Shown: in pieces, positions 19,961-21,776 of the stretch
How the letters are laid out: every line of letters starts with the position of its first letter
How positions within the stretch are numbered: position 1 is the stretch's first letter
Assembly (NCBI GenBank): GCA_022711635.1
Contig: JAKLEQ010000004.1
Location: 1-38,411, forward strand
Source: Methanoregula sp.
GTDB lineage: Archaea > Halobacteriota > Methanomicrobia > Methanomicrobiales > Methanospirillaceae
DNA: 38,411 nt
Reading direction: 5' to 3'
Notes under the pieces: generated by a model
Databases searched by the model: none
What the model was told of the DNA's origin: nothing
What the model saw: the letters and a program-made list of their open reading frames with translations, nothing else
Translations under genes and position numbers: made by a program

Positions 19961-20419
19961 TCATTCACTCTTTTTCTTTGCCTTCTGTACCCTGGTGTCC
20001 GTCTCCCGACCGCATGTTTCCGGGCTGTCAAGGTCAGCAAAATAGGGCTTGATATCGATGACCAGCGTTCCGTTGAAGGCGTCGAGCCCCCGGACCCTGA
20101 GTACACCGTTCTCAACGCCGAGCAGGTCGACAAGGCAGATGGCGACCGGGTTGGGGCGGTCCGGTGAGCGAATCGAGAAGACGCCGCTTTCAGCTACCTT
20201 GTCCGGCGGGGTCGCCCGGAGCCGGGTCCTGTCGGCCCGGTCGAACCAGCAGAGTACGAAGAGGTGTTTCCGCTTCTCAAGGTCGAGGAGGCCATCGCGG
20301 TACGCCGGGTCGATGACGATTAGGGAGATGGTGTCCGAGAGGCGCCCCTGCCGGGGGGCATCGCCATTTTTCTTGTACGGGGACCGTACCTCCCCGATGG
20401 GTCGGAGTTCGATTGCCAT
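19961..20419 (-). CDS. trmO: tRNA (m6t6A37) methyltransferase TrmO (TsaA/UPF0066)
   Basis: A 152-residue protein with the family core PIGEVRSPYKKNGDAPRQG, LFVLCWFDRADR and the signature SGVFSIRSPDRPNPVAICLV, followed by VRGLDAFNGTLVIDIKPYF. TrmO uses S-adenosylmethionine to methylate N6-threonylcarbamoyladenosine at position 37 of tRNA-Thr. I chose the ATG at 20419 because family homology starts there; the open frame continues 28 codons upstream without similarity. It converges with the paralogue gene. Confidence 0.88.
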   Translation of the reverse strand: MAIELRPIGEVRSPYKKNGDAPRQGRLSDTISLIVIDPAYRDGLLDLEKRKHLFVLCWFDRADRTRLRATPPDKVAESGVFSIRSPDRPNPVAICLVDLLGVENGVLRVRGLDAFNGTLVIDIKPYFADLDSPETCGRETDTRVQKAKKKSE

Positions 20420-20689
20420 GGGATCCTGAACGGGAAGTTGTCCCTGGCCAATGAAAAGGATTGCGGAAATGCGCCGTGGAACTCCGCATGGACAACGGGT
20501 CATCCCCTGCCCGTGCCTTCCGGAAAGGGGGTCCTCATGATCCCAGGGAGGGGGGTACCCCCAGGAGGGATCTGCCGATCCATGGCCACCCCCTCCCCGC
20601 TTCCGTTAAAACTTCCCCTTCCCTGAATGCCCCGACGTGAACCCCCACCGATGAGATACCTCAGACCATACCCGCCCCCACCCCCCGCT

Positions 20690-20724
20690 GGATCGGGGGC
20701 CCCCTCCGGCCCCCACCAGGGGGT
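20690..20724 (+). repeat. Degenerate 35-base repeat, copy A
   Basis: It begins GGATCGGG, has central C-runs and ends AGGGGGT. Compared without gaps to copy B at 20889-20923, I count 25 of 35 identical positions. Both ends are perfectly conserved, 8 bases on each side. Confidence 0.4.
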
Positions 20725-20882
20725 TCACCCGTACCCTGCCGACCCCCCTCCCGCCAAAAATTCGGAAAAATCACCCACCGTTATTCATCGCAGTATTTCG
20801 TCGGAGCGCCCAGCGCTTACCCAGCGGTTCGCGGGTAAAAGGGGGATTGGCCACGACCGCGGGGGTGGCCGCATACCTACCC

Positions 20883-20939
20883 CAGCCCGGATCGGGCAAC
20901 CCCCCACGATCCCCTCAGGGGGTAGGGCGATCCGGGCTG
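20883..20939 (+). repeat. 12-base inverted repeat enclosing copy B of the 35-base repeat
   Basis: CAGCCCGGATCG at 20883-20894 is the exact reverse complement of CGATCCGGGCTG at 20928-20939. Inside, CCCC-TCA-GGGG can form a second stem. Copy B of the 35-base repeat covers 20889-20923. The whole could fold as one long RNA hairpin or extruded DNA cruciform. Confidence 0.55.
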
Positions 20940-20941
20940 AT

Positions 20942-20979
20942 CCCCCCCACTGCGCGAGTACAACGAGTGGTCGGGGGGG
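20942..20979 (+). repeat. C-run/G-run hairpin
   Basis: A C7 run plus ACT pairs with AGTG and a G7 run across a roughly 14-base loop, with a small bulge (GTC). It lies 2 bases after the preceding inverted repeat, so the two may form one structured domain. Confidence 0.45.
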
Positions 20980-21053
20980 TGACCGGGAATACAGGATCCT
21001 CGTCCCATGGCAGGCGCATCCCCTCACCTGATACGCACCGTGTGGATCGATCC

Positions 21054-21073
21054 GGATAACGGCACCGTTATCC
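21054..21073 (+). promoter_or_regulatory. Perfect 9-base dyad upstream of the Yip1-like gene
   Basis: GGATAACGG and CCGTTATCC flank two bases. A TATA-like CTAAAAAATC follows at once (about 21075-21083), 28 bases before the ATG at 21108. The position directly upstream of the TATA box fits a regulator-binding site or BRE-side element (inference). Confidence 0.5.
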
Positions 21074-21107
21074 CCTAAAAAATCGATCGTATGTGCAGGT
21101 AGATTCA

Positions 21108-21776
21108 ATGGACCGTTCACTTGTCACGCTTCTTACCAAACCGGATGGTTTTTTCCTTAACCTGAATACCGAACCGGAGAGCCTCGGTGTACCGGCGCTC
21201 TTTGTCCTGACGAGCGGGCTTGTCGGCGCAATCAGCGCGTACCTGATCGCCGGCCTCACCGGGAAGATGATGAGCGCGATCATGCCGGGGATGGAATCGA
21301 TCACGGGGATTATCGCCGTCGTCTCCGCCATCATCGGCTCGTTTATCTTCTGGGGAATTGTCGCCGGCGTCTTCTACGTCATCTCGTCATCCTTCAAGGG
21401 GACCGGCACCTTCAACCGGTGCCTCGAGGTCGTGGGGTACGGATTCCTGCCGCAGGTCATCGGCGCACTGGTCGCAGCAGTCTATACCATCATGACCGTT
21501 CCCTCGATCAGCGTGCCGTCGCTCTCGAGATCCGTCATGAACGACCCGCAGGCCCTGAATGCTGCGATCACCGCGTTCATGCACGACCCGGCGATACGAA
21601 TGGTTACACAAATCTCAGCGGTCGTCTCCATCGTCTTCATCCTCTGGAGCGCGTACATCTGGGTCTACGGTATAAAGGAGGCCCGGGGACTATCCCTGCG
21701 GGACGCCCAGCTCTGCGTCGGGATACCGGTGCTCCTGTATATCATCTACCTGGTTTATTCGGTAACTCTCGCATGA
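21108..21776 (+). CDS. Yip1-domain membrane protein
   Basis: A 222-residue protein with five hydrophobic segments. PDGFFLNLN near the N-terminus and the later GTGTFNRCLEVVGYGFLPQV and GIKEARGLSLRDAQLCVGIPV segments are typical of prokaryotic Yip1-domain proteins. Their role in archaea is not known; eukaryotic relatives work in membrane trafficking. Two starts are possible: a GTG at 21093 or the ATG at 21108. The TATA position fits a nearly leaderless transcript from the ATG. Confidence 0.8.
   Translation: MDRSLVTLLTKPDGFFLNLNTEPESLGVPALFVLTSGLVGAISAYLIAGLTGKMMSAIMPGMESITGIIAVVSAIIGSFIFWGIVAGVFYVISSSFKGTGTFNRCLEVVGYGFLPQVIGALVAAVYTIMTVPSISVPSLSRSVMNDPQALNAAITAFMHDPAIRMVTQISAVVSIVFILWSAYIWVYGIKEARGLSLRDAQLCVGIPVLLYIIYLVYSVTLA

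Follow-up and report, generated by a model that had tools for sequence, protein, structure and literature searches.

The intergenic region at 20420-21092 of the window, that is, of the whole 38,411-nucleotide stretch of Methanoregula DNA analysed here, is one copy of a dispersed intergenic DNA element family in Methanoregula-type archaea. The conserved core of the family carries a dyad resembling the origin recognition boxes (ORBs) of the same lineage. From this likeness, it is probable, with somewhat better than even confidence on our part, that the dispersed elements are bound by an Orc1/Cdc6-family protein and hold initiator or organise the chromosome, and are not origins.

The intergenic region and its repeats

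The genome containing the window (G000) comprises 1.86 Mb in 189 contigs and is 77% complete. The gap extends from the likely start of a TrmO-domain gene to the start of a Yip1-domain gene at 21093. The initial annotation described it as non-coding and packed with G/C runs, and this description holds: 18 runs of at least five G or C occur in 20504-21092, a count above all 500 dinucleotide shuffles of the same region (mean 11.1, maximum 17), compared with a mean of 1.7 in equal-length parts of the rest of the window. The 12-base perfect inverted repeat, the C7/G7 hairpin, and the 12-base palindrome that it listed are all present. The perfect repeat (CAGCCCGGATCG at 20883-20894 and CGATCCGGGCTG at 20928-20939) forms the outer 12 bp of a longer inverted repeat, and the palindrome GGGGGTACCCCC is also common in the elements of related species. 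The features of the locus are as follows.

19961-20503, minus strand: TrmO-domain gene, probable start at the Met near 20418
20551-20562: 12-base palindrome GGGGGTACCCCC
20677-20922, plus strand: stretch homologous to the paralogues on contigs C6 (77%) and C113 (72%)
20690-20724, plus strand: left G/C-run unit, first of the 35-base pair, with a similar unit to the left of the C6 and C113 cores
20732-20897, plus strand: profile match of the four-copy model
20775-20789, plus strand: block CCACCGTTATTCATC, present in all four G000 copies (one mismatch in C169)
20790-20858, plus strand: family core, matched by profile model R3 at 40.3 bits (the training of R3 included this copy)
20796-20806: TTTCGTCGGAG, a diverged form of the conserved palindrome TCTCCGACGGAGA
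20818-20839, minus strand: ORB-like site TTTACCCGCGAACCGCTGGGTA, origin-matrix score -5.2, rank 106 of 76,822
20841-20845, plus strand: G-run immediately past the dyad
20883-20939: inverted repeat with 22-nt arms, 86% complementary, and a 13-nt spacer
20889-20923, plus strand: right G/C-run unit, second of the 35-base pair, like the unit in the paralogues
20942-20948 and 20973-20979: arms of the C7/G7 hairpin
21093-21776, plus strand: Yip1-domain gene, the other flank of the gap

The two 35-base units at 20690 and 20889 are identical at exactly 25 of 35 positions, as had been counted. Taken alone, this pair is weak and marginally above chance, an equally good pair being held by 5 of 200 shuffles of the region. 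The paired arrangement recurs on either side of the core in the paralogues on C6 and C113.

A dispersed family at shared loci

At least four copies of the element are present in G000. In a DNA search of this genome, the intergenic copies C6:2082-2330 (77%) and C113:38429-38620 (72%) were recovered, and the fourth copy, on C169, came from a motif search; common to the four is a core reading CCACCGwTATTCATC ... GGTTCGCGTGGAAAAGGGGG. Beyond G000, five further species of the genus carry the family, as do two sister-genus genomes. BLAST with the whole window region detected no copy outside G000, and the others surfaced only through profile models, whose E-values are rough and most of whose target genomes are drafts. 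With the first model, R1, copies came to light in G004 and G002. The second, R2, was composed of 11 copies and matched G004 eight times, G005 six times, G002 five times, and G006 and G007 once each, the weakest of these matches being uncertain (e.g., that at 1,490,681 in G005, one in G004, and one in G002); no matches were obtained with R2 in G001 and G003. With the third, R3, consisting of 22 copies, G066 was matched strongly twice and G011 once; both genomes belong to a genus other than that of the window, and G011, probably M. boonei, had already contributed its copy to R3. The block CCACCGTTATTCATC was not seen in the copies of other species. Neutral GC-rich sequence or assembly noise had been proposed for the case of no other copies, no covariance, and no transcript; other copies do exist, in G000 and in its relatives. 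A match in G027 was judged from its coding context to be due to chance, viral pattern matches were likewise chance matches in coding sequence, and a search for relatives with the Yip1 protein found none.

Comparison of the flanking genes revealed three loci common to several species, at which the orientation of the element relative to the genes is identical; a single locus and orientation is kept in up to four species. Locus I comprises the window in G000, C45 in G002, C18 in G004, and copy b of G005 (G005b). Its links are an aminotransferase gene (76%) and a further gene (80%) for G002 C45, and the TrmO gene (75%) for G004 C18, where the orthologue, too, adjoins a copy of the element, arranged as in the window; in G005b, the aminotransferase gene is found (74%), but 6.4 kb off. 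Locus II comprises G002 C12, G004 C5, G005a, and G000 C6, where C6 is tied to G005a through a single gene (70%), and locus III comprises G005c and G007 C214. Most of the flanking sequence at the shared loci has diverged, and the remaining copies have no orthologous partner among the compared stretches. Because loci and orientation are common to species, the elements are regarded as old residents. Of the small mobile repeat family suggested by the initial annotation, the dispersed family is supported, and the shared loci and orientation argue against recent mobility.

Mean identity between copies is 70% within a genome, 56% for the same locus across genomes, and 53% for other between-genome pairs, percentages that rest on one multiple alignment of GC-rich sequence. 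Copies are thus mostly nearer to their genome-mates than to their orthologues, with the exception of the G002/G005 orthologues, which are 79-82% identical. Since within-genome identity exceeds same-locus identity between genomes, this pattern is read as concerted evolution.

Similarity within each genome would also be expected of a MITE-like non-autonomous mobile element or its remnant, propagated by copying and possibly with a plasmid- or virus-derived ORB, and the elements resemble REP/MITE-type repeats in being multicopy, intergenic, palindrome-rich, and homogenised per genome. Tandem or neighbouring copies, as on G002 C53 and at G005 b/d, point in the same direction, as does the presence of an integrase-like ORF roughly 1 kb away from the C113 copy. 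However, loci and orientation are fixed across up to four species, neither terminal repeats nor target duplications were recognised (without a systematic search), and no plasmid, phage, or viral match was found, so that a mobile origin is considered improbable. In G004, homology between copies covers approximately 160-420 bp, mostly at 75-83% identity; the borders are ragged in BLAST, and no clear ends were seen, again without a systematic search. The ORF near the C113 copy (L005:1283-2560, minus strand, approximately 0.9 kb away) was named tyrosine-recombinase-like by eye and shows no sign of its moving the element.

The conserved core and its likeness to origin recognition boxes

The conserved 76-bp core consists of the palindrome TCTCCGACGGAGA, approximately 28 bp, and then TTTCCnGTGnAAAAcGGGGG, set within C/G-run hairpins. 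Its alignment is almost free of gaps over the 76 bp and reads GGTTTTTGGTCTCCGACGGAGA-nnnCA-16 nt-TTTCCnGTGnAAAACGGGGGGTACCCCC, the ORB-like dyad with its G-run being TTTCCnGTGGAAAAcGGGGG. Each element has one box in the core, and several copies have a second, inverted one. To the left of the core, five inverted ORB-like sites score above 8, compared with 0.3 expected and none in 200 permutations; four lie at -173 to -186 and the fifth, in G006, at -329. In some elements, the left module, about 180 bp away, is an inverted copy of both palindrome and box, which in G004 C5, C20, C3, and C13 and in G002 C12 reads, reverse-complemented, TCGTCGGAG ... CGAGGGGGG or similar. The inverted second module was not seen in the G000 copies.

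The flanks of the core are of low complexity and diverge freely, as would be expected if the elements were neutral GC-rich intergenic DNA without function, kept alike by gene conversion; the degraded box in the window copy would fit this as well. That the near-gapless core survives where the flanks barely align, together with the conserved positions and orientation and the ORB similarity, makes such an explanation highly improbable. The strong G/C hairpins may instead suggest a structured non-coding RNA, as had been proposed for the region, and a four-copy alignment contains five pairs with two-sided changes. However, RNAalifold yields zero consensus pairs on 22 core sequences, fold z-scores (+0.55, -1.9, and -1.2) are not exceptional, and Rfam and tRNA scans of the window returned no matches; an RNA is very improbable, and that proposal is not supported. 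CTCCG sequences around the core were considered by eye as an RNA stem and rejected, the pairing register shifting between copies.

Descriptions of archaeal ORBs normally place them within or alongside origins, adjacent to orc1/cdc6. In nine genomes the orc1/cdc6 genes were identified; upstream of the main one, the ORBs read nTTCCAnnnGAAACAAAGGGGT. Both kinds of site contain a 5+3+5 dyad, TTTCC-n3-GGAAA, followed by a G-run: in the ORB the dyad is TTTCC-AnT-GGAAA, and in the element it is TTTCC-nGT-GGAAA. Inverted pairs, too, are common to ORBs at oriC and some copies of the element. The similarity was quantified with a matrix derived from 24 sites picked as ORBs upstream of orc1 in eight genomes, one site being doubtful (three mismatches), with no elements used. 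In 10 of 19 loci, this origin matrix gives the core the top rank among all positions of the locus, and in 17 it places the core within the top four, whereas 200 column-permuted matrices reach at most 3 loci first and 8 in the top four; the loci are not independent tests in this comparison, because the copies are related by descent and homogenisation. In the opposite direction, R3, which contains elements only, matches an ORB at the origin of G038, a genome that belongs to a different family within the order; the match (E 9e-6) lies 0.9 kb ahead of the orc1/cdc6 gene. R3 also matches, weakly, ORBs at the G011, G000, and G004 origins. As a family, the elements agree well with the lineage's own ORB consensus. 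The window copy does so poorly, its site being the most degenerate of all; this copy may be decaying. The box of the M. boonei-like copy scores low too.

It is also possible, though appreciably less probable, that the element binds another protein, for instance a transcription regulator, a condensin/SMC loader, or a ParB-like or nucleoid protein, in chromosome organisation or segregation, and shares the dyad TTTCC-n3-GGAAA with the ORB by chance. The palindrome TCTCCGACGGAGA, the best-conserved part besides the dyad, would fit such a binding element, as it was absent at the origins checked. The G-run at an ORB-like distance past the dyad and the far better performance of the origin-derived matrix over permuted ones argue against coincidence. 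A reading as bacterial parS was rejected: the parS dyad is 4+4+4, and the 5+3+5 arrangement is common to ORB and element.

Five genomes share a conserved leader, approximately 55 bases long (GGCATCAGTCCCCTGCATCATCACC...CAGTGGGGGTAACTTTCATCATCTGCC), ahead of the second orc1/cdc6 gene or of the gene next to it; the leader lies at most 450 bases upstream of orc1-2 (L135, L136, L137, L139, and L140) and matches no Rfam family. Autoregulation of orc1-2 is not suggested, since this gene is without an ORB-like leader.

Relation to replication origins and candidate function

Unlike the ORBs at oriC, the elements are embedded in G/C hairpins and coupled to a palindrome that was absent at the origins checked. 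They are not adjacent to orc1/cdc6 in the nine genomes in which these genes were located, the nearest lying about 12 kb off in G004. The elements contain 30-43% AT, compared with 51-67% for the 400-bp stretches preceding orc1, and are devoid of an AT-rich unwinding region. With low AT content and distance from initiator genes, the canonical origin fails on two defining features, and the elements are most likely not replication starts. The same features leave only a slight chance that they are auxiliary or dormant origins, although the ORB-like boxes, inverted as a pair in some copies, would be in keeping with these.

On the G005 map, the three shared loci lie approximately 8, 35, and 118 kb from oriC. 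Such placing within 120 kb is what centromere-like sites of another binding protein might show, but several other copies are far from the origin, and proximity is therefore only a hint. Of the seven G004 copies, three are origin-proximal, a clustering that lacks significance given that about 18% of the genome is so placed.

In the preferred reading, an Orc1/Cdc6-family protein would bind the ORB-like dyad with its G-run, and a second factor may bind the palindrome TCTCCGACGGAGA. The elements would thereby hold initiator molecules away from oriC (titration) or organise the chromosome. The chromosome-structure site raised by the initial annotation is retained in the form of a chromosomal protein-binding site as the favoured kind, here specified as putatively ORB-like. 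Bacterial datA/DARS are chromosomal initiator-binding loci off the origin, and the initiator there is DnaA. The elements may be compared with them as candidate initiator-binding loci away from the origin, although initiator and boxes differ and the sequences are unrelated. A precedent is available in Haloarcula hispanica: oriC2 is there held in check by the ORB-rich region oriC2D, probably through titration of Cdc6E, and oriC1 is enhanced by a G-rich inverted repeat situated between ORBs (PMC3936714). Like oriC2D, the elements would be initiator-box DNA that is itself not an origin, and G-rich inverted repeats lie near their boxes, as at oriC1 of H. hispanica. oriC2D gathers 11 ORBs into a single 722-bp cluster downstream of oriC2-cdc6E (PMC3936714), whereas the elements are several and dispersed, with one or two boxes each, a difference that weighs against the preferred reading.

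More tentatively, and with less than even confidence, the elements may form a set of about four to eight position-conserved, concertedly evolving non-origin sites, built of palindrome-plus-ORB modules (some as inverted pairs) around G/C hairpins, through which Orc1/Cdc6 would time replication or organise the chromosome off oriC. No description of such an element family was found in the open-licence literature searched. If this is true, ORB-bearing elements occupy fixed non-origin loci and are homogenised per genome, and the restraint or placement of initiator in archaea could be put to a direct test in a relative that is in culture, e.g., Methanoregula boonei.

The C169 copy sits upstream of an archaeal 16S rRNA gene (L047:1-1104, minus strand), at a distance of about 1.2 kb. 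Another intergenic repeat, distinct from the element and some 66 bp long (TTCTCAAGTCTGCC...GGCAGACACCCCCCACC), was noted at L155:7450-7515 and in G005, G001, G002, and G004; it is present in many places in the genus, at times abutting the element.
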